Shown here piece by piece: positions 1,690 to 38,701 of a DNA stretch of 48,246 nucleotides. The DNA is from a virus. Location: positions 1 to 48,246 of the IMG/VR virus record IMGVR_UViG_3300017783_000041; one strand, 5' to 3'. A program made the position numbers and the translations under genes. Below the pieces are notes generated by a model. That model worked only from the letters and a program-made list of their open reading frames with translations, searched no databases and was not told where the DNA came from. Position 1 is the first letter of the stretch. The number at the start of each line of letters is the position of its first letter.

Positions 1690-4600
1690 TTAAAATCCAA
1701 ATTTTATTTTATCTTTACCGCTTTTCGTTTTATTTACTTTACCAAAACCAAAATCACTCTTATTATTAGTTTTGTTTTGCTTTTTGTCTTTATCAGGCTT
1801 TATCTGCCACTCTGGCCAACCAGCTAACATAGCTACCGTTTGCCAAGTTTCTGTATCTTCGGCTAATGCTGCTTCAATATTATTTACTTTGTTATAAACT
1901 CTATCAAGAGGTATGTTAGTAGTAGCTGAAAGCACCTTAGCACCAGCTTCATACGCTGGATTATCTAAGCTAAAACCTTTTTCAAATATTTCTTCTCTAC
2001 GTTTCTTACTATCAAATTGATAAGCCGCTTGCCTAACTTTAGATATTTTAGAACTAATAGGTGGAGATATTTGTAATAACTTATAAACAGCATCTACATA
2101 TTCAGGACGCTTTCTATCCGCTCTCTCATATATATCTAACAAGAAGTTTTTAATTACACCAGCTGTAGCTCCAGCAACACCTAAGCCTCTAAGTTGAGAG
2201 TCTAGCATACCATTAGCTATTTTATAGTATCTTTTGTTTTTATCCTTCTCGTGTGCCTCTAACTCTTTAGCTGTCATTTCGTCTTCATCATCTCCAAAAC
2301 CTAAAGCAAATAGTGATTGTTGTAAAGCATTGAATATTATGTTTTGCACAACGCCATAGTATATTATCTTACTTACATGAGATTTAGCATCACCTCTACC
2401 ATTTATTAAATCTTGAGCAGCTCTTTTTTGTAACCTAGCATATTGCATAGGAGTGTTGGCAAAAGCTAATACAACTCTACCTAGATCACTCGACTGTTGA
2501 GCAGATATTTTACTAGGATCTGAAGACTGTTGAGAAGTTTCAGCTATTTGTCTAAATTCAAGCATTGCTTTTTCTTTAGCCTCTGCTTCTGTTAAACCCT
2601 CGTTTTTTATAAGATCATTTATTCTATTACGATAAAATGTAGCACCACCTGAAGCTATAGCAAAACTATCAGCTATTTGAGTAGGTGCAAAACCTTTTTG
2701 TAATATATAATTTATAGCTGCTTTAGCTTTATTCTTACTTGTCGATGCTGCATCTGCTATTTCACTTTCAGATATATTTAATTTTAAACCATTACGTCTA
2801 TCCATTAAATAATCAGAGTTCATAAGATCCATAAAATCTTTCCAGTATTGCTTTTGATTAGCAAATGCTTTACCAGCTTTTATAGGGTTATTAAAACTCC
2901 AGTTAATAAAGTTTATAGAAGATATAGTCTGTAGCACAGCAGATCTTGCGTTTAAGAACATTATAGTACCAATAGAACCATTTACATAATCTAACACTCT
3001 GTTACTTAGTCTATTGCCGCTAAACAATCTATTCTTACCAGACTTCATACGCTTAAGTATGTTTTCCATAGACTCTCTATACTTCTCACCATAAGCAGCT
3101 TCTAACTTATTTAAGTTTTCTTCGCTAAATATAAGATCAGCATTTTCTAAAAATCCAGATTGTTCTAAATATTTTTTACGTTTAACAGTATTTAATACAT
3201 CTATTAAGTCAGTTGTTATTGTACCTGCTAACCAACTTTGTCCAGGCTTAGCGTAGCCATCGCCTTTAGTTAAGTTCATTAATTGATCTGCAAAAGCTTT
3301 TAACAATCCATCTGAATTAACTACATCAATAAGATCTTGTAAATCAGTTTTAGAAAGTCCAGGTGTATCATAACCCATCTTATTAAACAAGTAAACTCTT
3401 ACAGCTTGTTCATTAGTAAAACCTGTATCATTTTGTTTTCTAAGATTTTTAGGCACTTCTAAAGCTTTTTTAAGTGCTTTAAAGTCCTCCATAAGTTGTA
3501 GTCTATCAGTTGATAAGTTTTCTACAGCTCTGGCGTACGGATCAAGTAAGTTTTGCTTAAACCAAGCCATTTGACTATCACCTAACTTACCTTTACTTAA
3601 TAATGGATATATTAATCCCATGAAATCTTCAGCTGAATAAGGTATAAAGAATTTTTTATTACCTTTACCAGCGCCTCTGACTTTAGCTTTAGCTTTTGAG
3701 TAAGTTTTTTCACTTGCTATACCCGTTGTTTGCTCTATTATCTTGTTGAAATCTTCATTAACAGTTTTACTAAACTTAACTTTAGCTTGCTGCACTTTTG
3801 ATTTAACATCTAATTGACTTAAAGCATCTTGAACGGCTTCAACATTTTGATAAGCATCATCTGCAAAGTAAAAATCATTATAACCTTTAGCTGCTTTATC
3901 TATGATCCATTTAGCTTTAGCAGCGCCTGTAGAATTACCTAACCCAGTTATATTTTCTAATGGTATATTTAAACCTACACTATCTAAAAATTCTTTAATA
4001 GCTACTTGAGCTTCAGGTGCTCTAGCTGTTAGTACAAAAACATCTTCAGTTCCTCTAGCTTCTTGTATTTTTTTAGCTATATCTAATAATGGACCTGGCT
4101 TACCACCAGTTACTTTGTTAAACTCTGAAAAGTCAAACACATAACCTTCTTCTAATAATCTAGCTCCATCTTTAGCAAATTCTTCAGCATTTAATTTACC
4201 TTTAATTCCGTCAGGTGTTGTAAATAAAACGTCAGATTTAGTAGTCGCTAACGTGTCGTCAAAGTCAAACACTCTAATCTTTTTAACTGGAGCGCTAGGA
4301 TCACGAGCAATTGCTAAAGCTTCATCAACTGTTTTAGCGTAGCCTATAATATCTTCGTTAGTACTTGACTTACTAAAATTACCATAAGCAGGTTTAATTT
4401 GAGTTTTGTTTACTTCCTTAGCTTTTTGTACGTTTTCATATAAGTTTTTTAAGTTTTTACCTTTTATAGATTTTTTCCAGCTAATTGGTTTGCCATTTTT
4501 AATGGTGGGTGTATAAACAGTCATTTCAAATGGAAACTTACCAATTGAAAAGTTGTTAAAATACCTGCTAAACCTATTAATATATGCTAAAGGTATTGTG

Positions 4601-7600
4601 TCTTTGTATCTTATGTTTATAACGTCATCCATTTGCTCTGGAATAACACTAACAGATGCATCTGCAAACTTCTCTCTTAATTGGCTTTCATTTATTTGAC
4701 CATTAATATATTGAGCCATGTAAATCTTCATAACTCTAACAGGTGGATTGTGCTCAAACCTATAGTCGCTAGGGTTTGTGCTATCGCTAAGTGATATACT
4801 ATCAATAGGGTAAGCAGATCTTAATATAGAAGTCATATCACCAGTAGAAGACATGAAATACATACCTAAGTCATTTTTGCTTATACCTTCTTTTTTACCT
4901 TTATTATTTTTATAAAAGTTTAATACTCTTATTATTTCTTCTTGGTTACCTATAGCATCATTATAACTATCTGTTAAGGTTTTATCACTTAGCTTACCTG
5001 TTTTTAAAAATTCTTCTAAATAAAACTTTGTAGCAGCTTTTGACTGTTTAGCTCTATCAGTTTCTATTTTAACCCCATCGTAGAAAAAACCTTTACCTTT
5101 TTCATAAGTTAAAGCATTAGAATTGTCAAATGGTTTTAGTAAAACGTTTAGTAACTCAACCTTGTTGTTTAAAATACCATACCTAACACTACTACTTCTA
5201 CCACTTGCTTTTCCTTCTATTAATTTCCAAATACCTTTTAAGTTTTTAACCCACTTATGGTTTGGTAAAGAACCTATTTTAGCTGACGCTGCTAATGTTT
5301 CGTAATGTTGTAAAGCCCATTTAAAAAAGTCTAAATCATTATCAAACCTACTTCTATTAAATTTAAATATTTTTATCAAAGCGTTTTTAAAACTTTCTAT
5401 TTGCTTAACATCTCCAAAATTTACACCATCTTTATCTATTCCTAAACTTTCTTGAACGTCTACTCTAGGATCAGTTTGTTCTTCAAAAGTTTTGTATAAA
5501 TACTCGTTTAATTTTTCTTTATTTACGCTTTTTTTATCAAATTGTTTTTGTGGTGAATTATCAACAACTTTTTCAAATTCTTTAATTAAGTTTTCTTTAA
5601 CTTTTGTGTTTTCGTTATTTTTACCAGTAGTTAAAAACTTATCACCATACGTTTCTATAAAAGAAACTTCAATGTCTTGACCAATGTTTATTCTTTCTAT
5701 AAACTCAGAAAGTCCGCCTAAAAAGATAGCTTTATTATCTTCGTTTTTAATATCCCTAAAAGCTTTACCTAGGTTCTCTGATTTAGCAGTTTTAGAAAAA
5801 TAACCTGTTGGCATACCATCTTTAAGTGTTGATAAAGCTTCTTCAGACTTACCATCTAAAATTAATTGTTCTCTAACTTCTTGACTAGATATAACTTGAT
5901 CTAAGTTTCTTACAAAACCTTTTAATATATCACTAACTCCACCCTCGCTAGCTACTACTTTATTAACCCAATTATCTGGATTAGAATTAGTTATACCAAA
6001 AGCTTCTTTTATTTCTGAATCTTTTATATTAGGTTTTTTTATTTGAACTTGTAAACCAGGTTTAGTTTTAGCTCTTGCGCTACGTTTATTATAAAATTTT
6101 TCTAATAATTTTTTATTTACACCTGTTGATTTAAATTCAGAAGTGTAACCTTCTAATAATGATCCTTTAGCTAAGTCGATATTTGAGTTAATAAACTTTT
6201 GTATAGCTAACATTTCATCAGACTTTAAATCTGTATTTTTAGTTATTTTTTTAAATAAAGAGTCTGCTAAAGCTTTATCGTTTCTAGCTACCATGTCTAC
6301 TACTTCACGTAAAGCAAAACCTTTTAATTGTTTAATATTTTTAGCTTTAATATTTTTAGCTTTTGCTCTAACTGATTCTACAACATTATCTATGCTATAC
6401 ACCTTAGGTATTTTCTCTCTAACCTTAACACCTTTTCTTTCAGCCTGTCTTATTTCTTTGTCGGTTCTAGTATCTTCAGCTGGTGTATCATCTGCTTCTA
6501 ATTGTCTAGCTTGTTCAGAGTCTGTGCTAGTTGTAATAGATTTATCACCTATTTGTTCTTCATAGAAAGCAACAGCTCTTTTAGGTATGACGCTATTAAC
6601 ATATGTTGAGAACTCTAAACCCTTACTAGGGTCGTAATTTCTCATCACGCTTTGAAACTCTTTATTTAAAAAACTTATAGCTTCTTCAGATTCTATAGTG
6701 CCTTTTGATTTATCAAACTTCATAGCTCTTAAACCTAAACTATGGTATTGCTCTATAAAATCTGTTATTTTATCAGGATTTATGCTACCTTCTTTATACT
6801 GCTTAGCTAAACTAGTTGCTTCACTTTTACTCATAGCACCTTGAGCTCCTGCATCAATACCTTCTGAAACTATAGACCCAACTTGACCTTCAAAAGTTTG
6901 CTGTTTACCTTCTGATATAGCTTTAGACTGTCTAGCGTATTCTTTAACGAAGTTAAAAGCTTGTTTACCACTAACGAAGCTAGCGTTTTTATAACCGAAA
7001 GGCTTCAAGAAAGTATTTGTTATCATCCTACCTAACTCTTGAAAACCAGTTTCTTCAAAAGCTACTTCATTATTTATTACACCATCTGAAAGTGCTGTAA
7101 ACCACTCTTGACTAGTAGCATCTTCGGAGTTAATGTTATAATTGTTTAATAACCTATCGTTAACGGCTTTTATTTGCTTTTTATTTAATCTACTTTTAAA
7201 ATCTTTTATTAAGCTTTCGCTTTCTTCTAAAGTCTTTCCTTTTAATTGTTTATTTAGTATACCGTGTAGTAACTCGTGAGATGTAACAGGTATCTCTCTT
7301 AATTGCTCCGCGGCGGACTTATTTATATATATGTTGCCGTCTTCGTTTATATAACCAGTACTGTTTAAATCTTCAGTGTTAGTTACACCTAATTTAGATA
7401 AAGTTTTTTTATAAGTGTCACTATCTAAAACATTAAATTCTTTACCAGACTTTTCAGCTTCAGACCTAGCTTCTTCTTCTAGTCTAGAAAAGTTTTTATC
7501 AAAATCATAAACCTCATTAGTAGTTATTTCGCTTATTTGTGAATTTATATCTAATATTTCTTCTTTTTGCTTAGAAACTAAAGACTTATCGTCAGATGCA

Positions 7601-9717
7601 TCGACTTGTTTTTGAAGTCTTTTCTTTTGCTGCAATAATGAAAACACTTGCTTTTCACCATCAGCTGTTAATCTAGTCGATTTTCTTAACTCTCTAAACG
7701 TAGAACCTATTTCCCTAACTTGCCTTATTTGATCATCAACTTCTTTTTGGCTTTTACCACCAGACTCTAGCTCAGTTCTTAATTGTGTAATTTTATTTTC
7801 AATAGTATTTTCATCTGAGAAAAAAGCCCTAGCATTTTTATATTGTTCTTCGTTAAGTTGATTAACTACACCTTGTCTTTTTGCCTGCATAAAAGCATTC
7901 ATTGTACCAAAAGTACCACCAGCTATAGCTCCTACTTTAAAAGCTTGGAACATAGCATCTGGGTCAAAAGCAGTTTGTTCAGCATTGAAATAAGTTTTCT
8001 CCTCGTCGCCAAAAGCTTTTTTAGCCGTATTAAAACCTCTTTTCAAAGCTACTGTAGCTATTTCTTGAGTAACTTCAGTTCCACCCTCCATAAGACCACC
8101 AACACCAACACTAAACACTCCTCTAGCTAATTTGCTTTTTATTTCTTTCTCTAAAAGCTCTTGAACAGTCTTTTGTGTAAGTTTTTTAGTAGCATTTCTT
8201 TTTAATACATTTAATACTAGTTTTTTAGCTAGTGGATTTTTACCAACTATAGAACTAGCGCCAAGTTTCTCTAGTTTAGCTACAGTCCAACCTACAGCGC
8301 TACCAAATGCAACTTTTTGCCAATCGGGAACATCTTCAAAAACTGGATCATCCATCTCCTCTAAAATGCTTCCAGCTTCTTGTAAACCCATTATAGCACC
8401 AAAGGCTTTAGCTCCACCGCCAGGTATCAACAAAGACGATGTAACCATTTGAACTATAGAAGTTGTAACAGCACCAAACGTTGTTGCCTGAAACTCTTGT
8501 TGATACTCATTAGATATATCAGAACCTATTTCATCCTCTAGTGAAATACTATTTCTAATATTTTTTTCAATTTCATTTTTTAACCTAGCTGCTTTAGCTT
8601 CGTCTTCATTAATTAAACCAGTGTATTTTTTAGCGTCAACTACAGCATCTTGTAAAACGTTTGTACCGTCAGTTAAAAATCTATTTATCTTGTCAGGAAC
8701 ACTTAATGCTGTGTTATACCAAGACTCAACCCAAGTACCTCTATCGGCTAGTATTGACGTTTGCTCTGCTTGTATTAACTTGATCTGATCAGAAGCTTTA
8801 GATACATCTCTATCGTATCTAATTTTTAAACCTTCTCTTTCAACTCTCAATGATCTTTGCTTGTCAAGTAATTCTTTTTTACGCTCAGCGGCTTGATCTT
8901 CAGTTATTAAACCTTCATTAATATTCTTAGAATATTCGTCAACCTCTTTTTTAAATTCAGATTCTTTAGTTTCTAAATCGTTTATCTCTGTATTTATATT
9001 GTTTAGATTATAGTTAACCTTCTCGTTAGCTTCTTTAATTAACTTTTCATCGTATAAATTTACAAATGTATTTGGTTTTCCAACAGCGTTAACCATATCG
9101 CTTACCTCTACATTTTTATAATCTTTTTTATTTTCAAAGATATATTTTTTTATCTTACTAGTTTCTTTTTTTGACCCAGAATAAGTAAATGTATCTAAAT
9201 CTACCACTATACCATCCTTATCTTCATCTGTGTAAACTTTAACAGCGTCACCTAATCCAGTTTCTTCAAACCTTATACCAAAACCAGAGTAAAGTCTTCT
9301 TAGCTTAGGAACAGCTGACTCCTCTTCTTCGTTTCTTATTATAGAGTCAAGTTCTTCCAACTTGGGTTTATTTGTTATTTCCTGTATCTCTCTTACTCTT
9401 GATATTCTTTTTTCAAAATCATTAGCCCTTTCTTCCTCTAGCTTATCTTTTCTTAAAACAATTGTTTTTTTATTGTCTATTTCCTCTAACTCCTTGTTAA
9501 GTTTATCTAACCTCTCATCATCGCTTAAAGTAACTTCTTCTTCCTCTTCTTCTTTATTTAAACTAGCTAGTTCTTCCTCTGTTAACTTAAAAGGTTCATC
9601 CTCTTTTAACTCGTCTTCAGAAAACTCAAAAACATCTGTTAAGTTTAATAAACCTTCTACACTGTCATTGTTTTCTTGCGGTAATTCTAAATCTGTTAAA
9701 TTTAAAGTATCAGGCAT
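1690..9717 (-). CDS. Giant polyvalent internal virion / DNA-ejection protein
   Basis: 2675 residues, the largest gene here. Its place after nozzle and two smaller ejection proteins matches T7 gp16-type proteins that enter the host with the DNA. Residues 1-120 are acidic and E/K/L-rich. Coiled coil runs at about 220-330 and 640-760. Hydrophobic stretches lie near 405-450 and 590-612. HELLH (814-818) with a downstream Glu at 871 looks like a zincin site. Residues 1011-1060 resemble sigma-70 region 2 (YDPSKGLEFSTY). Residues 1813-1985 form a HAD domain: DFDDT (D1818, D1820), T1897, K1934/K1936 and D1953-D1954. The rest is mostly helical, with further hydrophobic segments near 2244-2275 and 2450-2475. 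This domain mixture is typical of phage polyvalent proteins. Ejection role is inferred from position and size; it is not shown that every domain is active. Confidence 0.85.
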   Translation of the reverse strand: MPDTLNLTDLELPQENNDSVEGLLNLTDVFEFSEDELKEDEPFKLTEEELASLNKEEEEEEVTLSDDERLDKLNKELEEIDNKKTIVLRKDKLEEERANDFEKRISRVREIQEITNKPKLEELDSIIRNEEEESAVPKLRRLYSGFGIRFEETGLGDAVKVYTDEDKDGIVVDLDTFTYSGSKKETSKIKKYIFENKKDYKNVEVSDMVNAVGKPNTFVNLYDEKLIKEANEKVNYNLNNINTEINDLETKESEFKKEVDEYSKNINEGLITEDQAAERKKELLDKQRSLRVEREGLKIRYDRDVSKASDQIKLIQAEQTSILADRGTWVESWYNTALSVPDKINRFLTDGTNVLQDAVVDAKKYTGLINEDEAKAARLKNEIEKNIRNSISLEDEIGSDISNEYQQEFQATTFGAVTTSIVQMVTSSLLIPGGGAKAFGAIMGLQEAGSILEEMDDPVFEDVPDWQKVAFGSAVGWTVAKLEKLGASSIVGKNPLAKKLVLNVLKRNATKKLTQKTVQELLEKEIKSKLARGVFSVGVGGLMEGGTEVTQEIATVALKRGFNTAKKAFGDEEKTYFNAEQTAFDPDAMFQAFKVGAIAGGTFGTMNAFMQAKRQGVVNQLNEEQYKNARAFFSDENTIENKITQLRTELESGGKSQKEVDDQIRQVREIGSTFRELRKSTRLTADGEKQVFSLLQQKKRLQKQVDASDDKSLVSKQKEEILDINSQISEITTNEVYDFDKNFSRLEEEARSEAEKSGKEFNVLDSDTYKKTLSKLGVTNTEDLNSTGYINEDGNIYINKSAAEQLREIPVTSHELLHGILNKQLKGKTLEESESLIKDFKSRLNKKQIKAVNDRLLNNYNINSEDATSQEWFTALSDGVINNEVAFEETGFQELGRMITNTFLKPFGYKNASFVSGKQAFNFVKEYARQSKAISEGKQQTFEGQVGSIVSEGIDAGAQGAMSKSEATSLAKQYKEGSINPDKITDFIEQYHSLGLRAMKFDKSKGTIESEEAISFLNKEFQSVMRNYDPSKGLEFSTYVNSVIPKRAVAFYEEQIGDKSITTSTDSEQARQLEADDTPAEDTRTDKEIRQAERKGVKVREKIPKVYSIDNVVESVRAKAKNIKAKNIKQLKGFALREVVDMVARNDKALADSLFKKITKNTDLKSDEMLAIQKFINSNIDLAKGSLLEGYTSEFKSTGVNKKLLEKFYNKRSARAKTKPGLQVQIKKPNIKDSEIKEAFGITNSNPDNWVNKVVASEGGVSDILKGFVRNLDQVISSQEVREQLILDGKSEEALSTLKDGMPTGYFSKTAKSENLGKAFRDIKNEDNKAIFLGGLSEFIERINIGQDIEVSFIETYGDKFLTTGKNNENTKVKENLIKEFEKVVDNSPQKQFDKKSVNKEKLNEYLYKTFEEQTDPRVDVQESLGIDKDGVNFGDVKQIESFKNALIKIFKFNRSRFDNDLDFFKWALQHYETLAASAKIGSLPNHKWVKNLKGIWKLIEGKASGRSSSVRYGILNNKVELLNVLLKPFDNSNALTYEKGKGFFYDGVKIETDRAKQSKAATKFYLEEFLKTGKLSDKTLTDSYNDAIGNQEEIIRVLNFYKNNKGKKEGISKNDLGMYFMSSTGDMTSILRSAYPIDSISLSDSTNPSDYRFEHNPPVRVMKIYMAQYINGQINESQLREKFADASVSVIPEQMDDVINIRYKDTIPLAYINRFSRYFNNFSIGKFPFEMTVYTPTIKNGKPISWKKSIKGKNLKNLYENVQKAKEVNKTQIKPAYGNFSKSSTNEDIIGYAKTVDEALAIARDPSAPVKKIRVFDFDDTLATTKSDVLFTTPDGIKGKLNAEEFAKDGARLLEEGYVFDFSEFNKVTGGKPGPLLDIAKKIQEARGTEDVFVLTARAPEAQVAIKEFLDSVGLNIPLENITGLGNSTGAAKAKWIIDKAAKGYNDFYFADDAYQNVEAVQDALSQLDVKSKVQQAKVKFSKTVNEDFNKIIEQTTGIASEKTYSKAKAKVRGAGKGNKKFFIPYSAEDFMGLIYPLLSKGKLGDSQMAWFKQNLLDPYARAVENLSTDRLQLMEDFKALKKALEVPKNLRKQNDTGFTNEQAVRVYLFNKMGYDTPGLSKTDLQDLIDVVNSDGLLKAFADQLMNLTKGDGYAKPGQSWLAGTITTDLIDVLNTVKRKKYLEQSGFLENADLIFSEENLNKLEAAYGEKYRESMENILKRMKSGKNRLFSGNRLSNRVLDYVNGSIGTIMFLNARSAVLQTISSINFINWSFNNPIKAGKAFANQKQYWKDFMDLMNSDYLMDRRNGLKLNISESEIADAASTSKNKAKAAINYILQKGFAPTQIADSFAIASGGATFYRNRINDLIKNEGLTEAEAKEKAMLEFRQIAETSQQSSDPSKISAQQSSDLGRVVLAFANTPMQYARLQKRAAQDLINGRGDAKSHVSKIIYYGVVQNIIFNALQQSLFALGFGDDEDEMTAKELEAHEKDKNKRYYKIANGMLDSQLRGLGVAGATAGVIKNFLLDIYERADRKRPEYVDAVYKLLQISPPISSKISKVRQAAYQFDSKKRREEIFEKGFSLDNPAYEAGAKVLSATTNIPLDRVYNKVNNIEAALAEDTETWQTVAMLAGWPEWQIKPDKDKKQNKTNNKSDFGFGKVNKTKSGKDKIKFGF

Positions 9718-11779: not shown

Positions 11780-14700
11780 TTAATATGATGAAACAACAAA
11801 GTCAGTTGCTACAGAAAATAACTCTTTAAAGTTACCAACATCTGTAGTATTATCAACTTGTATTTTGATTGTTGTAAAATAACCTTTTACACCTGATACA
11901 TTCTCACCATTATTATCTATAATAACTTGACCAGGTCTAGTAGTATTATTACTTCTTATATTCGCTACATATCTATTTTCTTTTCTGTTAAAACCAACTC
12001 TCTTTTTAACACCATCTTCAACGTATACTCCTTCGTCGTAGCTTTTTATAGGTTTTATAGTGTCTAAGTATTCAACACCCGAGTCAACGCCTTCAGCATC
12101 TGAAAACATTTCTACAGCTTCCCAACCATTACTACCCTCGTAACTAATTGTTTTAAAGTTTTTAGTAATACTTGGTTGTGAATTAAATATAAAAGTTATG
12201 TTCATATCTCCTTGCTCTCCATAAAACTCACCTCTATTACTAACATCTGAGTAATGCTTGTATATAGTATCACTCTTAGTTGTAAAGAAATTACCTTTAA
12301 AACTAAACATTTCGTCAGGTATGAAACTTAAGAAAGTTGTCCAACCTAGTATTGTTTCATCAAAGGTCAACGTTTTAGATGATTTTGGAGTAATATCACT
12401 AGATGTTGTAAAATAAGTAAACTCATATTCTTTAACTCTAACGTCTTTAATTAGAGATATTGTATACATATCATTATTCTCGTCCCAAGCTCCTCTAACA
12501 CTGTCTTTAGCCCATCCTTCAAACTCAAAAGTACCACCTTGATAAAAATTAGAGTTATTAGTGCTAACCTGTACAGCGGTTGAGTAAGGGTTGTTTGTAT
12601 CTATATTTTCTATAAAACCATAAAAGAAATTACCTAAAGGATCTGGATTACTTATGTTTGTAACTTTCATACCAGCTTTTATTAAGTCCCTAACGTCTTG
12701 AGTAGCGTTAGCATTATTACTTATTATTAAAGTGTTTGTTTGAGAATATCCTTGAGCAAGCGCTCTAAGTTTTATGTTGTAACCTTCTGTTTCTATATTT
12801 CTTAATTCATCTCTAAAGAAATCAGACATTCCGTACTGTGATATTTCAGTTATACCATCGTTTGATATTCTAAGTACAGCGTTTCTGTTTTTATCAGAAC
12901 AATATCTTCTTCTACCAAAAAACGCGAAGCTTTCTGGATTTGTACTAATACCATATTGCCCTACGTAAGGTTGTATTTGACCTATTACTAGATTTGAGGA
13001 AGTGACAGTGCCACCACCTTCTGCCGCGTAAATAGCATCTTTGTCTATTAAAGCTCTACTTATTTTGTTTTCTTGAAATATAGTCAGATTAGTATCTTCG
13101 GCATGTAGTTTCTGTATTGAGCCATAAGCTGGTTCCGCTGTTTTAGTTATGTCTTCACCTATTGAAAAAACGTTAGTTTCGTTTATACCTGTTCTAGAAT
13201 TGTACACACCGGAATATATTAAAGAGCTAAAACGATGTGTTGACTTGTTTTGATCATCATTTTGTAAATAAGCTCTAACACCATAATCGGTAGGTGTGTT
13301 ATTATAACCACCCCTAATTCTAGCTTCCTCTATATACCAAGAATCATAAGGTAAACATTGTGTCCAGTATTGAGCAGCTTCTCCACCAGGTTTAATATAC
13401 CCAGGGTTATAATCTGGAAACATAAATAACGAGTCATATATTGGAAAATCATGCCATAGGTCAGCTTTTATTTTACCATTTGAATCATAGTTATTCCAGT
13501 TGTAATAAAACATGCTCCAAAAAGCTGGCAATCTATCAGACCATAGGTTAGGACCACCACTATAGCTTCTATACTCTCTACTTAAGTTGCTAGTAACGAC
13601 CATTGGAAATGTAAATCTATTAGGGTATTTAAACGTTGTAGTTTCACTAAGTACTCCTTCATCGTCAACCCTATCTCTCTGTATATAACCAGGAAATGGT
13701 TCGTATTGTTTCCACGTTAAACTATGTTTTATTATGTTTCTAACAGTAAAAGAATTAAAGTACTTTAACTCTAGCTCCACATACGGTGTTTGACCATTGT
13801 ATATTTCTAAACTGGTTTCTAAGTCGTTATTTAAATCGCTAATAACACCTGTGGTAGTGGTTTCCCAAAAAATATCTAAATCAGATTTAACAGGTGTAGT
13901 TTCCAAAACCCCAAACCTAACCCACCTAGCATTATTAGGTGTAGCCGCGCCTTCAAAGCCATCATCATCTTCTACAGGATAATAACTAGTTGAAGATGTT
14001 TTATCCCACCCAGCTCCTGGATCAGTGCTGTAATAACTAGAAACAGTACCTATTAATAAAGTTGAAGACTTTGTTAAAAAATTACCACCATTATAAAAAT
14101 CCCATTTAGGAATAGGATCTAAAACAAAAAAAGTGTTTGTTGCAGAAGCTTCTTCTACATCTATCAAGTCACTTGGTTCAATATTGAAAGTGTTAAACTC
14201 TCTTATTGTCTCTACTTTGTCAGGTGTTATCTCTCTATCTATTTCAAGAAAGTACTGCATACTTAAGTTCCAATTGTTTGATGAAACCCTAGTGTATAAA
14301 CCAACGTCACTTCCAGCAAAGTTTCTATCATTTGGACCAACACTACTTAGTGACCTAGGTAGTTTGTTTATATTATCACCACTTATCTCTATTTGATATC
14401 TTGGGCTACTTGTTTGAAAATAAAAGTCTACTAAATCTAAAGTTTTTGGTGTTGAAACATCACCATCTGAATTAGTACTATAATTATATCCTTTAGCGTA
14501 TGTTGTAGCACTCTGTATTCCAGGAACATACAAATTGTAGTATTCTTGTTCTTGTTGTTTTACAACAACTTTATAACTATACCAACCCAATGGATTATCT
14601 AAAGAGTATAAGTTTTCACTTTGTATCTTGTCAAGCATGTGTATTCTAAGAGAATCACCAAAATGATTACCAGCGAACCATTGATCATTCCACGCTTCTG

Positions 14701-16780
14701 AAGTTCTAGGTTTGTAAGGTACGTAAACCGTAGATGCTTTATCTCCGTTTGCGATATCTTGTATATCATCTGGAGCTACTATAACGTCAGACTGTCTTCC
14801 ATACCTATCGCATAATATAAAACCTATTTGATATGTTCTATTGTTTTTAACGTTGTGGGTTGGATATTGTTGAGCTGCAAAACTTGGATATCTATTCTTA
14901 GTCGATGTAACGTCTTCTACATTATCTATTCTTTTTCTACCAAAATTAGCTGTGTATTTTATGTTTTTAGGATAGTCATTTTTATCTATAAAATTACCAA
15001 ATATTATTCTATTGCCAATAGCTTCTTGCGTCTTAGCTCTTACTGGAACTTGATCATAAACTCTAGTCATTTCTGACTCTGGAAGAGTTTTAGTGGGCTC
15101 AGTACATTTATATTCGTATTCTATGAATTTACCACTTGGGTCTAAATCTTCAATTTTCAAAGTATCTATAGATTTAATAGACGAATCTTCAGATGATTTG
15201 TATAATATTTCAATCTCTTTTACATTGAAAGAACCAATTAATTGACTATTACTGTAGCTCAAGCCAGTAGATTCAACAACAGGGTTATCTATATACAATG
15301 TAACAGAATCAACATTGTTTTCCATTATAGGTAGATCTAAAGATTTTTTAATCTTGTTAATATCTTCACCCATTATATGGTTGTGTTGCTTTGGTGTGAA
15401 AACATGCTGGGTAAAAGGAGCTATAAGTGAGTATTCATCATCTATAAACTTGTATCTATAACTTAACCTAATAAATTTATCTTTTAAAAACTCTTTAGTT
15501 CCTGAGTAAGAAGGATCATAATCAGGATTTGGATAATGAAAAAACAACTTACATTTTTCAGCCGTTGGTTCATTTCCTCTTCTAAAACCTAATGTAGAGT
15601 TTTGAATTCTATCTAAGCTATTGTGTAGTGATTGAAGATCACTATTTATACTTCCTCCGTTAGATTCAGCCCATATTTGAAAACGCCATAATGTAACGCC
15701 ACTTATAGTTGAAGAACCCTGTAAAGAACCATTATTGATGCTTCCTTCAACTACTTTAGCACTTACCAATCTACAGTTGTTGTTTTTGCCAATAGACTTA
15801 TTATCTTGTGTTCTACTTCCATAAAAAGCAACTAATTGATTATTAGCTGGGTTTTTACCGGGTTGAACTCTATAGTCACCATTAGGGTTGTAGGTTGTAT
15901 CCGCGGGTAACCACTGCCTTTGAAGTGTATCTTTAACATTAGTATCTTGACCAGCTATATCCCAGCCACTACCTGAAAAAGTATTAGGTTCTGCATACGT
16001 GTAACAGAAGAAGTAGTGACCGCTAGTAGCTGCATACTCCTTGTATTTAATATGGCTTCCAGCAACTATGTCAGTTGTTTGTTGAGGAAACATTATAACA
16101 GGTGAATTAGTATGGTCAAGCCACCTGTCGGTTTTATTCTTCATTGATGGAACAGTCTCTATAGCATTGGTCTTTTTTTCGTATAACCTAATAGGATTCC
16201 AAGGGTAATATTTTGCTAAAGATATTTGATCTTCTCTTGAGTAGGTATTTTTACCTTCTAAAGCTTTATTTATATTTATTTTTCTAGGCTGGTTTCTATT
16301 GTCAGTCCAGAATAGCAAATCTTCTATAACGTTAACACCACAAATGGGATGTGTTTTAGAGAAGTTTAAAAAATTTCCTTCAACAAGTATAACACCTCTT
16401 TCTGATACAACTTCTTTAGTAAAATCGATCATTACTATAAAAGAGTTTTGAGGAGTATAGTAATTTTCACCAAAAAAATAACTTAAATTATCAGTGCTAC
16501 TGTCTTCAAAGCTTGTAAAAAATAAAAAAGCCCTATCTCTACTAGTGTCGATAAAACTTCCTATAACTTCTTGATGTGTTATATCATATGATTGTATTAA
16601 GCTAAGTGGATTATTAAAAATTTCATTACCTTTAATATTTTCTAAAGCACCTACATCAGCACCTTCTGATTTGCTTATAGATACGTTTTCAGCGTTTCTA
16701 TATTCACCATTAGGTATAATTCTAGCGTCCAAGTCTTTGTTCATCTTGGACTTTAAAAAAGTATTTTTAATTTGTGGCAT
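11780..16780 (-). CDS. Giant tail nozzle / tail tubular protein B-like structural protein
   Basis: 1666 residues, rich in aromatic residues and beta strands. The N-terminus (DARIIPNGEYRNAENVSIS, then a phrase on IKGNEIFNN) is the signature I associate with phage nozzle or stabilisation proteins of short-tailed phages, whose beta-propeller core closes the tail tube. It is much longer than T7 gp12 (about 790 residues), so extra domains are likely, perhaps accessory beta domains in the C-terminal half. It follows the adaptor gene by 2 nt and precedes the ejection genes, the expected position for this role. Confidence 0.75.
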   Translation of the reverse strand: MPQIKNTFLKSKMNKDLDARIIPNGEYRNAENVSISKSEGADVGALENIKGNEIFNNPLSLIQSYDITHQEVIGSFIDTSRDRAFLFFTSFEDSSTDNLSYFFGENYYTPQNSFIVMIDFTKEVVSERGVILVEGNFLNFSKTHPICGVNVIEDLLFWTDNRNQPRKININKALEGKNTYSREDQISLAKYYPWNPIRLYEKKTNAIETVPSMKNKTDRWLDHTNSPVIMFPQQTTDIVAGSHIKYKEYAATSGHYFFCYTYAEPNTFSGSGWDIAGQDTNVKDTLQRQWLPADTTYNPNGDYRVQPGKNPANNQLVAFYGSRTQDNKSIGKNNNCRLVSAKVVEGSINNGSLQGSSTISGVTLWRFQIWAESNGGSINSDLQSLHNSLDRIQNSTLGFRRGNEPTAEKCKLFFHYPNPDYDPSYSGTKEFLKDKFIRLSYRYKFIDDEYSLIAPFTQHVFTPKQHNHIMGEDINKIKKSLDLPIMENNVDSVTLYIDNPVVESTGLSYSNSQLIGSFNVKEIEILYKSSEDSSIKSIDTLKIEDLDPSGKFIEYEYKCTEPTKTLPESEMTRVYDQVPVRAKTQEAIGNRIIFGNFIDKNDYPKNIKYTANFGRKRIDNVEDVTSTKNRYPSFAAQQYPTHNVKNNRTYQIGFILCDRYGRQSDVIVAPDDIQDIANGDKASTVYVPYKPRTSEAWNDQWFAGNHFGDSLRIHMLDKIQSENLYSLDNPLGWYSYKVVVKQQEQEYYNLYVPGIQSATTYAKGYNYSTNSDGDVSTPKTLDLVDFYFQTSSPRYQIEISGDNINKLPRSLSSVGPNDRNFAGSDVGLYTRVSSNNWNLSMQYFLEIDREITPDKVETIREFNTFNIEPSDLIDVEEASATNTFFVLDPIPKWDFYNGGNFLTKSSTLLIGTVSSYYSTDPGAGWDKTSSTSYYPVEDDDGFEGAATPNNARWVRFGVLETTPVKSDLDIFWETTTTGVISDLNNDLETSLEIYNGQTPYVELELKYFNSFTVRNIIKHSLTWKQYEPFPGYIQRDRVDDEGVLSETTTFKYPNRFTFPMVVTSNLSREYRSYSGGPNLWSDRLPAFWSMFYYNWNNYDSNGKIKADLWHDFPIYDSLFMFPDYNPGYIKPGGEAAQYWTQCLPYDSWYIEEARIRGGYNNTPTDYGVRAYLQNDDQNKSTHRFSSLIYSGVYNSRTGINETNVFSIGEDITKTAEPAYGSIQKLHAEDTNLTIFQENKISRALIDKDAIYAAEGGGTVTSSNLVIGQIQPYVGQYGISTNPESFAFFGRRRYCSDKNRNAVLRISNDGITEISQYGMSDFFRDELRNIETEGYNIKLRALAQGYSQTNTLIISNNANATQDVRDLIKAGMKVTNISNPDPLGNFFYGFIENIDTNNPYSTAVQVSTNNSNFYQGGTFEFEGWAKDSVRGAWDENNDMYTISLIKDVRVKEYEFTYFTTSSDITPKSSKTLTFDETILGWTTFLSFIPDEMFSFKGNFFTTKSDTIYKHYSDVSNRGEFYGEQGDMNITFIFNSQPSITKNFKTISYEGSNGWEAVEMFSDAEGVDSGVEYLDTIKPIKSYDEGVYVEDGVKKRVGFNRKENRYVANIRSNNTTRPGQVIIDNNGENVSGVKGYFTTIKIQVDNTTDVGNFKELFSVATDFVVSSY

Positions 16781-22240: not shown

Positions 22241-24661
22241 TTATCTAGGCATAAATTGCTCTAGACCAAAACCGCCCATTGCATCATTACCAGCGGATTC
22301 AAAGTTTTTTGGTAATAAATCATTTTTTCTTTGATCAATTAACTCAGATTGCTGTGTAGCTTGTATCTTAGTTCTCTCATCTTTTCTATCTTCTTTATAA
22401 GATTCTTCGTTTCTTTTAGCATCACCTTGCGCTTTAGCTAGTTTAATATTAAAGTTAAACTCAAGCTCCATTAACTGTTGCTTTATTTGAGCTTCTCTTT
22501 CCATTCTAGCCATATCAAAGTCACTTTTAGCTTTTTCTAGTTGAACTTTCTGTTCGGTCAATACTTGTTGTTTTTGTGTTTCAGCCAAAGCTGTCTCTTG
22601 TGCTAATTGAGCATTAGCCTGTGCTTGCGCTTGTATATTGGCTTGTGCCACTTGTTGATCTCTAGCAGCTTTATCTTTTCTACGCTTTTTCAACATTTGA
22701 TTAGCTAACTTTAAATTGTTAACTTCCCTAATGTCTATAGCGTCTTCTAAATCTATTTGACCACTTTTTAAAGCTATTTGAATATTTTGTTCTAATATTT
22801 GCTTTTCTTCTTCGTCTGGCTCTAATTGTATAAATATACCAAAGTCATGTATATTTAAATCAGCTAGCTCATCTAAAGTACCAACATTGTACCTTGATAT
22901 ACTAGACATTAAAGATTGTTTAGTTAGTGGAAACATTAAAGCATCTGCAACCCTTAAAGATATATTCTCACATGTTTTAAGTGTTAGGTATAAACTCGAC
23001 TGTAGTATGTGTCTAGTAGCTGTGTTTGAATTAGCAGCAGCTAGCTTTTGCAAACCTACTAAAGCATACTTATCAGGAGTACTACCGTCTCTAGCTTCGT
23101 TTAATCCAGTTACATCTCTTATCATTTTAAGGTAATATTCATAAGTCTGTATAAGACCTTGTATTTTACCCATACCATTAGATGAGGTGAGTTCTTGTAT
23201 AGGCATTTTACCTGGGTTCATAGTGCCATCTTGTGTCATAGACCTACCTACTACAGAACCCGTTTGAAAATACATATTTAAAGCTTCAGCTGGGTTGTAA
23301 TTAGTTCCATTGCCTAAGTCAACTTCTGCTAAGCCATCTATGTCCATATAAACTCCATCAGGCACCATTCTAGACATCACCTGTTGTAGTTTCAAGTGCG
23401 TAAGCTGTATCATATCAGCAAAACCGGTTATTCTGCTTACAATTGATTCTATACGCCCTTTGTATATTCTAGGAGCTACTATATTATAGCTCATATTAAC
23501 TCTAGTTGTATCAGCATTAGGTCTAGTCATATTCTCCGCTAATTGCCAATTAAGCATCTTGTCGTGACCAAGTATTTTAGCCCCACTATATAATACTTCT
23601 ATAGATCTGTAAGCTTTTTCAAAACTGTCGTTATCAGGAGCTTCTATAAAAGTATCTTGTTTCTCTAACGCTTTTTCAAGTCCTGAAGCTGTTTGCTTTA
23701 TTTTAAACACTTGATTAGTGTAAGTCTTATACTCAAAGTAAATTACTTGAACAGTTTGGTCATCGAATCTTCCACTCCAGTTTCTAGTGTAATTTTGGTT
23801 TCCTGGATATTTTTGTATTTCCTCTACATCTTGTGGTGTTAAATAAGGAAATTGCTTTTTTAATTCAGGTATACTAACAGCTTTAACTTCTCCAACATAA
23901 TACAAGTCGTCAAAGTTAGGATCTTCTGTATACGAGTAAACTAAGCTAGACGGATCTACGTAATCTACTTTAACACCGTTGGATCTATCAAAACTGGTCT
24001 TAACCGCTGATATACCTAAAACTGCTAAATCATAATTAAGTCTTCTTCTAGTTAAATCATACCTATTATAGTCAAGAATTTGATTTATAACTTCTTCTTC
24101 AGCTACTTCAATAGACTCTTTATAATCCATCTGCATGTGCAACTGTAAGTCTTCGTCATTCTCTAAGCTTAAACCTTTGTCTCCTGTTTTAGAAACATCT
24201 AGACCGGTCATTTCTCTAACTTGATTTATTAAGTCTTTTTGCCTCATGTCTCTATGAAGAGCTTCTGCATACCTAGTTCTTTTCATTATAGACTCTGGAT
24301 CTTGAGCATAAGCTTTTACGTCATAAGACCTTTGTGACATTCCATTGACTAATATATCTACAAATTTAGGTATCACAGGTACTGGTTTCCAATCTAAGTT
24401 TAAATAACTTAAATCACCATTTATAGATAATTCGTCTTTATACTTTTGTATAGATTGTTCACCTCTCGCGTATAATCTTAATTTATGAAATTTATTGTAG
24501 TTAGTATTAAACCTATCGTAAGAGCCCCTGTCGTTTCTAAACCATTCACTTTCAATAGCTCTACCAACTCTAAGTCCATATTCGTAAGTAGCTTTTTCAG
24601 CGTCAGGTACAACTTGACTTGGAAAAGAACTGTTATTGTTAGCGTTTGGAATTATATTCAT
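22241..24661 (-). CDS. Portal protein
   Basis: 806 residues, forms the ring through which DNA enters the head. Recognised by position immediately after terminase (TerL stop and portal ATG abut) and by portal-like sequence such as IPKFVDILVNGMSQR and the stretch RDMRQKDLINQVREMTGLDV. The last 170 residues are A/Q/E/K-rich and probably form the C-terminal barrel or a coiled coil. It is longer than T7-type portals (about 530 residues), which is usual for this marine group. The next gene on the strand is the scaffold. Confidence 0.85.
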   Translation of the reverse strand: MNIIPNANNNSSFPSQVVPDAEKATYEYGLRVGRAIESEWFRNDRGSYDRFNTNYNKFHKLRLYARGEQSIQKYKDELSINGDLSYLNLDWKPVPVIPKFVDILVNGMSQRSYDVKAYAQDPESIMKRTRYAEALHRDMRQKDLINQVREMTGLDVSKTGDKGLSLENDEDLQLHMQMDYKESIEVAEEEVINQILDYNRYDLTRRRLNYDLAVLGISAVKTSFDRSNGVKVDYVDPSSLVYSYTEDPNFDDLYYVGEVKAVSIPELKKQFPYLTPQDVEEIQKYPGNQNYTRNWSGRFDDQTVQVIYFEYKTYTNQVFKIKQTASGLEKALEKQDTFIEAPDNDSFEKAYRSIEVLYSGAKILGHDKMLNWQLAENMTRPNADTTRVNMSYNIVAPRIYKGRIESIVSRITGFADMIQLTHLKLQQVMSRMVPDGVYMDIDGLAEVDLGNGTNYNPAEALNMYFQTGSVVGRSMTQDGTMNPGKMPIQELTSSNGMGKIQGLIQTYEYYLKMIRDVTGLNEARDGSTPDKYALVGLQKLAAANSNTATRHILQSSLYLTLKTCENISLRVADALMFPLTKQSLMSSISRYNVGTLDELADLNIHDFGIFIQLEPDEEEKQILEQNIQIALKSGQIDLEDAIDIREVNNLKLANQMLKKRRKDKAARDQQVAQANIQAQAQANAQLAQETALAETQKQQVLTEQKVQLEKAKSDFDMARMEREAQIKQQLMELEFNFNIKLAKAQGDAKRNEESYKEDRKDERTKIQATQQSELIDQRKNDLLPKNFESAGNDAMGGFGLEQFMPR

Positions 24662-26884
24662 TTATTTTATTTTTGAAGCGTAACCTGTATTATCATAGGT
24701 TTTTATACCTAAATTAATAGATTTAGTTTGTCTTTTTGCGACTGGAGTATATCTGTTTTTATTGCAAGCCATTATAGCTAAACCAGAGCTTATTGAAGCA
24801 TCATGTTTAGTTCTATTATTAATGTTAAACTTAGCCCAGTCTTCTAAAGTTTTTTGAAAGTACATATTACCAATGTGGTTTTCTAAATTACCAACATGGT
24901 TTTCTATGTAACTCTCTATAGCAGCAGCATGTGCTTGCTTAATATCTTCACTAGTGTTAGGTATACCACCTATTTCTCTTTCTGTTGGTGATAACTTATT
25001 AAATACTTTATCAGGACGATTCATTGAAAAACCTCTGTAACCTCTTCTTTTGAAGTAGTATAATAATCTAGGTTTATTGTTTTCAGCAAGTATTGGCATG
25101 CCATAAAATATACAAGCCATTAAAACATCTTCAAAGAATATTTCAGCTGTCTGAGGTCTTGCTATATATTCTAAGAAAAAGTGATTAGCAGGAGCGTCTT
25201 CCATTGAAAATTTAGTTAATCCGTGTAAAGCTCCATTAGAACCTTTACCATCGACTGTACCAGATATATCGTAACTATCACAACCAAAAGCGCCAACATG
25301 TTCATTACCAGGAGATTTAACTCCATTATTTATTATCACTCGGTTTTGCAAGTTTTTAGGTGGCACCCAAGATATTAAAAACCTACCGTTTTTATTTGGT
25401 GTAAACAAAACTCTAGAATCTTTTATGCCATTGTCCCAAATAAAACTACCTTTAGTAACACTTTTATTATTGTTAAACTCCTCGTTGTAGTCTATTTGCT
25501 CGTATATTCTAGTTAAGTTAAATAAACTATTTTTAGTTTCATCTCTAAAAGCGTGTTGCTCTGTTCTTGGAAACTGTCTATAGTATTCATTTAAACCGTC
25601 TTGATCTTGTTTTAAACCATCTACTTCATTTTCCCAATGCTCTATTACTCCGATTGTAATTGGAACATTGTCTCTTCCGATTGTTTTATTTTTTGGCGTA
25701 AAGAATACAGGTGATCCAAAAGTATCCATGAATCCTTCGTAGTTCCATTCCATAGGGATGAAAAGAGAATACAATCCGCTAGATGTTTGTCCGTTTCTAT
25801 TTCTTTTTGTAACGTCTGAACTTTCGTATAGTTTTTTGAAGTTGTCTCCACCTTTATCTAATGCGTTTGAAGTTGAGCCCATCATACACTTGCCTACTAT
25901 TCTTGATCCTAATCTTAGTGTAGTTTTTGTAACTCTCCAATTGTTTAATATGTTGTCTGGTCTTTCCCATTTCCCTGATTCGTCGTGTGATAGTAGTTTT
26001 AATTTTTCACCATCGTAAGAGTTGTCTCCTGTATTTTTCCAATCAATCGTAGTATCTAATCCTTGCAGTTCTCTAAGCTTCTCATTGGACTCGAGTTTTC
26101 TTCTAGTAAGCTTCGAAGCCGGCACCCTATACGCGAGCTCGGTTTTTGGACGATCCATACCGTCTTGGATTGGTTTAAAGAAAAACGGATAGTTAACGGA
26201 TATTGGTACAACTTTATCTGTGAACATCTTTTTAGCATCTGCTCCAGATTTTGATAAGATACCGAATCTAGCATCTGAAGAAATTGTGGCTTGATTAACA
26301 AGCTCTGCCGATGACATAAAGGAGAAACCACTCCGTCTGTTTTTAAGATAACACATTCCGTAGCACCTGTTATCAGCCTTACAGGCTTCCCAAAATATAA
26401 AGAAGAGTCTGTTTGCTTCTCTATAATCTGGTGCTCCGACGTCAATCTTTGACCACTGCAAATACATGTAATGAGTACCAGTGATATAAGTAGGCACACC
26501 GTTATTAAAAAACCAGTGACCATCTGATCTATATTTAAATTCTTCATCTATATAATCGTACCATTTTTCTTTGAAGTCATTAGGATATTCATCCCAATCA
26601 AATCTGCTTTTTATTCTAGCTAATTCTTTTGGGTATTCTTGTTTTTCCCAATACTGTTCCTTTTGCTTTTCGCTTCGTTTAAACGGTTTATCGATTGCTG
26701 GTAAAGCAATCCTGAGATTTTGAATTTCAATGATCTGTCCAATCTTACCTGTTTTACTAATTACAATAAAATCATAATCAGGGTTATAACCATACTCCCA
26801 TTTTTTATATCTATTATTTTTAGATAATAATTTTGGGTTTACAACATCTTTTACTTCTTTCCAAAGTGTTTGTTCGTAACTCAT
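24662..26884 (-). CDS. terL: Terminase large subunit
   Basis: 740 residues; motor ATPase and nuclease that packages genome DNA through the portal. A Walker A-like loop lies at 181-188 (KNRRSGFS), atypical in its RRSG core but common in large terminases. Walker B ends in D301-E302 (KLLSHDE). The RNase H-type nuclease acids are probably D536 (GCDSYD) and D695 (HDASISSG). The protein is longer than T7 gp19 (586 residues). It overlaps the small subunit stop by 4 nt and abuts the portal start. An antisense-free second frame at 26056-26547 is just its shadow. Confidence 0.92.
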   Translation of the reverse strand: MSYEQTLWKEVKDVVNPKLLSKNNRYKKWEYGYNPDYDFIVISKTGKIGQIIEIQNLRIALPAIDKPFKRSEKQKEQYWEKQEYPKELARIKSRFDWDEYPNDFKEKWYDYIDEEFKYRSDGHWFFNNGVPTYITGTHYMYLQWSKIDVGAPDYREANRLFFIFWEACKADNRCYGMCYLKNRRSGFSFMSSAELVNQATISSDARFGILSKSGADAKKMFTDKVVPISVNYPFFFKPIQDGMDRPKTELAYRVPASKLTRRKLESNEKLRELQGLDTTIDWKNTGDNSYDGEKLKLLSHDESGKWERPDNILNNWRVTKTTLRLGSRIVGKCMMGSTSNALDKGGDNFKKLYESSDVTKRNRNGQTSSGLYSLFIPMEWNYEGFMDTFGSPVFFTPKNKTIGRDNVPITIGVIEHWENEVDGLKQDQDGLNEYYRQFPRTEQHAFRDETKNSLFNLTRIYEQIDYNEEFNNNKSVTKGSFIWDNGIKDSRVLFTPNKNGRFLISWVPPKNLQNRVIINNGVKSPGNEHVGAFGCDSYDISGTVDGKGSNGALHGLTKFSMEDAPANHFFLEYIARPQTAEIFFEDVLMACIFYGMPILAENNKPRLLYYFKRRGYRGFSMNRPDKVFNKLSPTEREIGGIPNTSEDIKQAHAAAIESYIENHVGNLENHIGNMYFQKTLEDWAKFNINNRTKHDASISSGLAIMACNKNRYTPVAKRQTKSINLGIKTYDNTGYASKIK

Positions 26885-28449: not shown

Positions 28450-31400
28450 TTAAGGTACATTTGTTGATCTGCCTGAATTTGCTGGGTTAGTTACACCGTC
28501 TGCGTAATCAGCCATATTAATACTGTATGAGTTGTTGATACTGTCTTTCATATCACCTTTTAAATCTGCTATTGTTGAGTTTGATCCAACACCATTAGCT
28601 GTTGAACCAGGCGCGTCACCTACTACGTCGTGTTGTTCTGTGTTTTGACCATTTCCGTCGTTTCCATTTACAATTTCCCTAACCACTAGATCAGTTCCAC
28701 CAAAATACGTATATTGTTGATCTAAAGGCCACCAAAAATACGGTTGTCCAGGCGTAAAGCTGTTATTTAAATCTTGAGTAACACCGTTATTATATAAATC
28801 TAAAGCTTCTTCATTGTTAATAGCTCTATCGTAAATAGCTATATTTGAAAGATAACCATCAAAATAAAATGAATTATTATGACCTTTACCAATACTGTTA
28901 TACGCTCCCGTGTTATAACTACCAGTTAAAAAACTATCGTAAGAAACACTATCAATGTAAACTGTATAATTATTGTTAGAGTTTACTACAATAACGTTGT
29001 GCCAATTACCATCATTTAGTCCTGACCCTATATTGTATTTCCAGGTGTTAGTACTTACAATAAAACCAATCTTATCAGCGGAGTTACCTTTAGTAATTGC
29101 AAAGTTTTTTGTAAAACTAGCTATTTGAAAAAGTCCTGAAGCCGTAGCTGTATCAGTTGTTTTAAACCATAAAGAAACACTAAAATCTGCTCCAAAAATA
29201 TCTAACGAAGGGTCTGTACCTATGTCAAAGTGATTAGTACCGTCAAATTGAATACTATAATTACTAAAAGGTAATTTTCTAGTTAAATTACTTTGTACTA
29301 AAGCTGTTCCAGGTAGAGTATCGCTTTCACCGTTAACTGTAGAAACGTTATCATCAACTAAGTTAGATTGTACCATGTTTAAACCTGTAGCTTCTTTTAC
29401 ACTTACAAAAGTATCTACAAATTGTATTCCAGTGTCTTGGTATCTGTTGTTGTAATCTAAGTCACCTATTTTATCAACAGTCCCAGCTCCAAATTCCTCC
29501 AAAGTAAACCAATGATTTGGTGATTGAGATATTGAAACTTCAGGGCTTCCATTGTTATACAAAGCTGTAACAGCTGTTTGATCTATTTCAGAACTCCAAT
29601 ATGCAAAATTAGAAATAGTACCATCAAAATAACTACCATTTACATCATTCCTTCCGCCAAAAGATGAATTATTGTAGCTTTGTCCATAGTCTATGGTTAA
29701 TGAACTAGGAGGTGTTACTGTTTTAACTAAATCTCCATTAATATAAAACTTACTATCTGTTCCGTTCCAAACAACCACAATATGTGACCACTTTCCATAT
29801 GGCGTATAATCAGGAGAAGCATCTACAACTGTGTTTTTAAAATAACTCCAGTTACCATTTTTAGCAGTACCTCCTCCATCTACTGCTGTAGTGTTTTTGT
29901 CACCTATTTGAAACTGTAAGTCGTTGTTGATATATCCTAACATAACACCTTGCCAAGAGCTTCCTTTACAAGCAAATATGTCACCATTAGTTGCTACTCC
30001 TGGTCTCGGTTTAATCCAAACTGACATTGAAAACACTTGATTCTCATATGCCGGTTGTGAATCATCGTCTCTCAACATACCAGCATCAGCTCCAGAATAA
30101 AAAGCACTTTTCCAGCTAGTAGGATATATTTGGTTTTCAAAATTCCATTTTGTACCATCCCAAGCGCTTGTTATTTTATCAAAGTTAAACAAAGCTTTTG
30201 AACTACTAGGTTGAATAGAATTTGAAATTAATGGAACACCGTTGTTATAAACCGACAAAGCTTCAGAATCGCTTAACGCGGTGTTTAACCAAGCTTGAAC
30301 ATTACTGACATTAACACCGCTTACCCCGGGAAAAGCCCCAACGCTAAACGCGCTCATTGGAACCCCACTACCACCACCAGCAGCACCATAAATTACTCTA
30401 TTTCCTACTGCATTACTCATTTTTAAACCATCTAAGAACAAGTTACAATCATCTTTATTATCAGCCGTAGGTATTGTCATTAAACAATGATGCCATTCTC
30501 CATCTTGAAGATCTACTCCTTGATTTACGTTTTCCCATTTAATATAATTATTCCCACCCGATATAAACCAAAAGTTACCTTGATAGATTCTTAAAGTCCA
30601 ATTAGTACTTGAATTTAACCCTATAACACCTTTGTATCCATCTTTTGTAATTCTCGCCCAAAATGAAATTGTGCAAACCTGCATTTTGTTAACACCTGTT
30701 AGGGTAAAAAAGTTTTCATCAACAATAACCTTCTCACTACCTAGAAATCCAAAACTCTGTGGATATGCAGATCTATTATCTGGTATGTCCCAGTGATCGG
30801 CTGAAAATGTTGCCGGTGGTTGATTTTCAGCTCCTCCATACCAACCGTATTTCGTAGTATTACTAAGAAAGTCTTCGTTATAACTAGAGCTTCCACCACT
30901 AATATTTACATCATTTATTTTTAGAAAGGAGTCAGTCGCTCCCCTGTCAACACCTTTTATTCTAATTTTTATATTATTAGAAACTGTAAGATTTCCAGTG
31001 CTAGGTATGCTAAAACTAACTGGGCTAAAGCCTCCCGGTCCGTTTGTTTGAGTATGCCAATTAACCCAACTTCCATCATCTATATTGTATTCTAATATAG
31101 CTTGACTACCATAGTATGGATCTTCATAAGATCCTCCAGTTGAAGATAAAACTATGTTACTACCACTTGTATATATAGTTGGTGAATTCCATTGAAAATA
31201 ATCGCTACCTACTGTTGTTCCAGAGTTATTATCGTGCCATATTAAGCCGCCACTGTCATAAGGACCTGAACCTGAATTGTTAGCTACGTAACAGCCATCT
31301 ATAGATTGTGAAAAATTAGGACTACCTACTTTCTCTATGCTCCAATTTGTTGGATTACCCGGTGTTAAAACAGCTGATTGATTTAGTTTGTACCAACCTT

Positions 31401-38440: not shown

Positions 38441-38701
38441 TTATAATACTACTACTACGTCAAGTTCTTTTATGACTTTGTATTGTTCTTTTTTAATCTC
38501 TATTTTAAATCCAGCAGCTTTATCATAATAGATTTCATCTCCCTTTTTTAATGCTTTAACATCCGTGCCAGGTTTTACAACCTTAGCACGTCTGTATCTT
38601 ATATCTTCTCTTTGTGACTCAGCTAGTATTAAACCACCTTTTGTCTTTGTATCAATCTCCTTGATTGGTTCAATAACTATATACTTACCTATTGCTTTCA
38701 T
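38441..38701 (-). CDS. groES: Co-chaperonin GroES (Cpn10)
   Basis: 86 residues (E. coli has 97). Caps GroEL and lets substrates fold. It shows the Cpn10 start (GKYIVIEPI), a mobile loop TKTKGGLIL that corresponds to GGIVL and docks on GroEL, the KKGDEIYYDK strand and a C-terminal hairpin. Overlaps the end of GroEL by 4 nt (ATGA), so the order is GroEL first, the reverse of the bacterial groES-groEL operon. Likely works with the phage GroEL. Confidence 0.88.
   Translation of the reverse strand: MKAIGKYIVIEPIKEIDTKTKGGLILAESQREDIRYRRAKVVKPGTDVKALKKGDEIYYDKAAGFKIEIKKEQYKVIKELDVVVVL

Follow-up and report, generated by a model that had tools for sequence, protein, structure and literature searches.

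Genomic context of the giant protein

The window, by which we mean the whole 48,246-base IMG/VR record analysed here, carries a crAss-like structural block, in which a large terminase, a portal, a muzzle protein and further structural proteins are encoded. A giant protein is the product of the last large gene in this block, and the features of interest lie within it.

22241..26884, minus strand: portal and large terminase (phrog_6547, phrog_6681)
11780..16780, minus strand: Muzzle-type virion protein (PF25729 crAss_MUZ_C, E=2e-10; phrog_14478, E=6.5e-79)
1690..9717, minus strand: giant protein of 2,675 aa
6880..7602, minus strand: region with an HExxH motif (HELLH, residue 814), conserved, recovered by iterated profile
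6529..6828, minus strand: sigma-70 region-2-like domain, residues 964-1063 (the confident helices of the model)
6601..6636, minus strand: motif YDPSKGLEFSTY (residues 1028-1039), which corresponds to the stretch from F419 to Y430 in sigma-70
5773..6315, minus strand: conserved domain of unknown function (A6), residues 1135-1315, C-terminal to the module
3805..4287, minus strand: HAD-like region with a DFDDT motif (residue 1818)
1801..4326, minus strand: C-terminal part with the strongest conservation (residues 1798-2639; relatives share 45-60% identity)

The nearest named relatives of the large terminase are found in the uncultured podovirus MW202828 (65%) and in Elemovirus Flavobacterium phages (45%), with Maribacter phage Panino at 41%, Pachyviridae and Pervagoviridae phages infecting Cellulophaga at ~37% and Tenacibaculum phage Gundel_1 at 31%. 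Gut crAss phages are further off, at ~21%. With relatives among phages of Flavobacterium, Maribacter, Cellulophaga and Tenacibaculum, the host is likely to belong to the Bacteroidota and to be flavobacteria-like.

In cultured cousins, the corresponding position is held by genes with a structural annotation (elemoA gp21, phi38:1 gp101, phi13:2 gp127 and Gundel_1 gp074), and the "structural protein" gp074 of Gundel_1 has the C-terminal domain of the giant protein (E=4e-11). These annotations, together with the homology of gp074, suggest that the giant is probably a virion protein of the cargo or ejection type. The cargo proteins gp45-gp50 of the Crassvirales phage crAss001 are giants that are encoded after the muzzle gene and carried in the virion (PMC10172136), and both they and gp66 of phi14:2, a virion RNA polymerase, lie past the muzzle, as the giant does here. 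Polyvalent proteins are multi-domain proteins that are injected with the phage DNA, and T4 Alt acts on the host RNA polymerase immediately (PMC5512222). By analogy with the crAss001 cargo proteins and the polyvalent proteins, we infer that the giant would be packaged and then ejected into the host.

Family and domain organization

One scan of IMG/VR gave 27 relatives of the giant protein, and a search with an alignment of its C-terminal half raised the number to at least 554 IMG/VR stretches that encode relatives, the best 80 of which were taken on; the family spans a large uncultured phage group. Homologues longer than 2,000 aa, 98 in number, are counted as giants below. When the giant and the C-terminal half of one relative were compared by tblastn with 50,697 phage records, nothing matched, and the giant thus has no close named relative among them. 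In one relative (L018), there is a plus-strand giant ORF, and a minus-strand ORF at the start of the other strand encodes the C-terminal part once more (59-63% identity), reflecting either a duplication or an assembly artefact. Relatives of the giant gene also occur in MAGs labelled Aliivibrio, Ilumatobacteraceae, Woesearchaeota, Alphaproteobacteria and Maricaulis (L107, L109, L110, L111, L112, L114-L116); these are probably misbinned phage contigs, and the labels do not name true hosts.

The order within the giant is HExxH region, sigma-2-like module, A6, HAD-like region and conserved C-terminus. The HExxH motif is present in 98 of 98 giants, and by this motif the region would be a zincin-like metallopeptidase. 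The DFDxT motif is present in 97 of 98; matches to phrog_415, a polynucleotide kinase (E=0.0017), and to DUF2608 and Hydrolase families are weak and, with the motif, suggest the HAD assignment. Polyvalent proteins combine several effector-type domains in one delivered protein; with an HExxH region, a sigma-2-like domain and a HAD-like domain in a row, the giant may be a candidate for this class. The A6 domain (5773-6315, minus strand) has the signature LPEG..x..G.ATGV....FY.K, and a search of the PDB with it returned no relative and no sigma match.

A module resembling region 2 of sigma-70

The segment for which a likeness to sigma-70 region 2 was originally predicted, 6538-6687, corresponds exactly to residues 1011-1060 of the minus-strand ORF (6687-6538 in the direction of reading) and has the sequence given for it, including SFLNKEFQSVMRNYDPSKGLEFSTYVNSVIPKRAVAFYEEQ; the plus-strand translation of the same bases is meaningless. 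Neither the whole giant protein nor the segment alone reaches Pfam Sigma70_r2 at E<=10. When 65 family members were compared with Sigma70_r2 singly, one reached it, at E=0.15, and none passed the gathering cut-off. A phmmer search with one relative gave a sigma domain at E=0.023, yet dynamin-like proteins score equally, so that single sequences prove nothing.

The family alignment leads further. By iterated profile search (E<0.001), the module was found in 66 of the 98 giants; of the 32 left over, 17 have a weaker form at the position where it would be expected. The family alignment, A3, contains 65 sequences, with no sigma factor among them. Its profile was run against all PDB sequences by hmmsearch, and the top three matches were sigma factors (best 8b3z, E=0.0019), as were 8 of the 21 matches that had E-values of 10 or less; the non-sigma matches were to MukE, ALG-2 and an ice-binding protein. 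In an hhalign comparison with the aligned region 2 sequences of 30 sigma factors encoded by two Bacteroidota genomes, the module family scored 36.5 (Prob 87%, P=4e-6), in a register that is gapless across helix 2.2 to 2.4. The probability was 90.6% with the trimmed alignment A5 and essentially the same (86.7%) when the window sequence was left out. Against the score of 36.5, the maximum was 11.1 for 100 column shuffles, about 10 for reversed profiles and 17.1 (2.2%) for 29 slices taken from the C-terminal half of the same proteins.

The A3 profile was also run over the ORFs in stretches of crAss001, phi14:2 and cr1_1. The best match was a cr1_1 ORF (E=0.0021), which carries the annotation RNA polymerase sigma factor. 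The module was not detected in the searched stretches of crAss001 and phi14:2 or in cultured cousins, where one of the searches had no positive control. The relationship to sigma-70 region 2 is significant at the profile level only: with the family, the resemblance lies far beyond chance, but it is not significant from the module's own single sequence.

Predicted fold

AlphaFold2 run on A3 with the window sequence first gave confident helices over residues 964-1063, and run on A5 with a relative (L077) first it gave a model with a mean pLDDT of 86.6 and a pTM of 0.75. The predicted helices 1.2/2.1 to 2.4 follow each other in sigma order, and the likeness extends N-terminally over the region 2.1-like helices. 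In Foldseek searches of the PDB with the two models, sigma factors made up 50 of 50 and 49 of 50 of the matches listed, with probabilities up to 1.00 and E-values of only 0.1-0.3, which are not significant alone in a database rich in sigma chains. Examples are 5h6x, a fragment of RpoS region 2 (TM-score 0.71 by target; rmsd 3.0, 94 columns), and SigE 8b3z (28-30% identity), and in BFVD the named top matches are phage sigma factors. The weight of these predicted structures lies in the lack of a competing fold. The likeness proposed in the original prediction is thus borne out by the family-level PDB search, by hhalign and by AlphaFold with Foldseek; no confident match to a different fold appeared, and sigma matches were obtained with the close homologues.

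Residues retained and lost

The module has the helix order, register and predicted fold of sigma-70 region 2 (Pfam PF04542, which includes the ECF sigmas), and the turn F/Y-D/N-P..G/N..F/L..Y/W is common to both. In sigma-70 numbering, assigned by alignment, the module is aromatic at 419 in 100% of sequences, has Pro at 421 in 80%, and is again aromatic at 430, the equivalent of Y430, in 92%. Positions 412, 431 and 435 are hydrophobic, position 432 is polar (mostly Asn) in 76%, and K or R occupies 438 in 93%. In sigma-70 itself, Y430 stacks on the -11 base of the promoter and belongs, with W433/W434, to the aromatics that serve in promoter melting.

The face that meets the polymerase has fared differently. 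Q406 and E407 of sigma, with D403, touch the RNA polymerase clamp. Among 40 module sequences, Q406 occurs in one, Q406 together with E/D407 likewise in one, and an acidic residue at 403 in 25; the window has S1015 and F1016 where sigma has Q406 and E407. The host sigmas have D403 in 26 of 30, Q406 in 24 of 30 and E407 in 20 of 30. Within this phage group, the standalone sigma genes have Q406 in 9 of 9, and D403 in all 8 whose stretch covers it. Loss of the clamp residues in the module, set against the retention of Q406 and D403 in the standalone sigmas, is the sharpest result against sigma-like binding of the polymerase. The module is also not aromatic at 433/434 (S and V in the window), the equivalents of W433/W434 being missing; this tryptophan pair is missing in many ECF sigmas too.

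In contrast to the sigma-70 family, then, the module lacks Q406/E407 and W433/W434, and it is embedded in a giant virion-type protein. Neither region 4 nor a partner DNA-binding domain was found past the module in the PDB search, and the rest of the giant was unmatched. With no region 4 detected and the residues that normally contact the clamp lost, the best reading of the sequence is that the module would not be a working sigma factor and that its polymerase interface has been altered or lost.

Transcription setting

The D[FY]DGD catalytic motif was found in none of 19 records including the window, and Rpb1 domain 2 in none of 19 records, whereas 14 of 14 control genomes were positive for it. 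A search with PF00940 (single-subunit RNA polymerase) was uninformative because no control genome was positive. Of 20 viral records that measure 56 kb or more, 15 have a standalone sigma-like gene (E<0.001) whose product is roughly 250-260 aa long. No such gene occurs in the window, a fragment that stops 1.7 kb past the giant gene. The missing multisubunit polymerase signature and the standalone sigma genes together indicate that these phages probably use the host RNA polymerase, and an early-transcription role for the module is plausible. Presence of the module and presence of a standalone sigma showed no clear pattern in these fragmentary records.

The standalone sigma-70-like protein, seen in many relatives (L118, L163-L169, L023), is divergent and ~250-263 aa long. 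It comprises region 2 and an apparent C-terminal HTH; an insert replaces the usual FDP..G..FSTY turn, and the protein ends in a conserved KSFLSKRIKGAIRR.

Origin and possible function of the module

Descent of the module from sigma-70 region 2 is, in our view, highly probable. Convergence, by which a helical bundle without common descent came to resemble region 2, is improbable, although the domain is short and all-helical, its single sequences never significantly reach Sigma70_r2, and the Foldseek E-values do not fall below 0.1; the gapless register, the far lower scores of the controls and the lack of a rival fold speak for descent. That the giant might instead be a virion RNA polymerase as in crAss phages, with the segment forming part of it, was considered since the giant follows the muzzle gene, on the side where the virion RNA polymerase gene block of phi14:2 lies. 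Unlike the Crassvirales virion RNA polymerase, however, the giant has no polymerase motif: D[FYLI]DGD is missing from the giant (P0001), the 19 records yielded neither D[FY]DGD nor, with its positive controls, Rpb1 domain 2, and the DFDDT motif is HAD-like. A built-in virion polymerase was rejected for want of the catalytic motif; the reading is largely refuted and only a very slim chance is left to it.

The question is then what a domain derived from sigma region 2 would do in a virion protein. In our proposal, the domain, lying between the HExxH and HAD-like regions of a giant packaged in the virion, would be delivered along with the phage DNA. The mechanism that we favor most is that, once ejected, it would engage the host's transcription apparatus at an early stage by way of a remodelled interface, its target being the polymerase clamp or opened promoter DNA, in phages that use the host RNA polymerase. 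Taken as a whole, with descent from sigma region 2, a virion giant and a transcription-directed mechanism, this statement is tentative and falls somewhat short of an even chance. Alternatively, the domain may have taken on a new task within the ejection protein, in its structure, in folding or in the handling of DNA, for example by keeping hold of the DNA end that goes first or of a second cargo protein, and may have no role left at the RNA polymerase; this is a substantial possibility that we would likewise not call probable. Such reuse would fit the loss of the clamp face beside the retained core, aromatic turn, N432 and K/R438, and in many of these phages there is a standalone sigma that can take care of transcription; on the other hand, we found no known precedent for it, and the aromatic that stacks on the -11 base in sigma-70 is still kept. 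The sequence accommodates both action on the transcription machinery and repurposing, and the residue pattern makes both directly testable. Even without polymerase contact, a transcription-factor fold would have been recruited into a virion protein.

The original prediction went further in proposing that a virion-borne sigma-like module could bind host RNA polymerase at once and redirect or block it. The likeness, the conserved element and the probable virion protein are in its favor, but binding in the sigma manner is not supported, Q406/E407 being kept in 1 of 40 modules while 9 of 9 standalone sigmas retain Q406. The polymerase may be bound through a changed interface. The specific scenario in which a phage that lacks a polymerase delivers a sigma-2-derived domain, and this domain attaches itself to the host's RNA polymerase or to promoter DNA ahead of all phage expression, biasing the first minutes of transcription, seems unlikely to us as it stands.

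Among the known ways in which phages solve early transcription are a carried polymerase (N4, crAss phages, phiKZ), an injected enzyme such as T4 Alt, and use of the host sigma. If our proposal is true, a sigma-derived domain carried by a probable ejection protein would add to these solutions. T4 Alt differs in that it modifies the polymerase enzymatically, with no sigma mimicry. A closer likeness is offered by the late sigma of T4, gp55, which consists mainly of a sigma-2-like domain and whose residues 44-123 have been modelled on the beta-prime coiled-coil: a sigma-2 domain can work without the rest of sigma and can dock alone (PMC2988020). However, gp55 is a small, late-expressed protein, whereas the module lies within a giant virion-type protein. 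The word sigma is missing from the searchable text of PMC5512222, PMC10172136, a crAss-like genome survey and a Crassvirales review, and we found no earlier description of such a domain in the searchable literature, outside of which most subscription papers lie.

Other genes of the window

Two further minus-strand genes of the window were noted. The gene at 28450-32724 encodes a protein of 1,424 aa in which five stretches are of the concanavalin A-like/laminin G kind; it is probably a tail protein that binds a receptor or glycans. At 38698-40245 lies a gene for a phage GroEL-type chaperonin (Cpn60, E=1e-54); GroEL and GroES occur in cousins too, and these phage chaperonins perhaps fold giant virion proteins.
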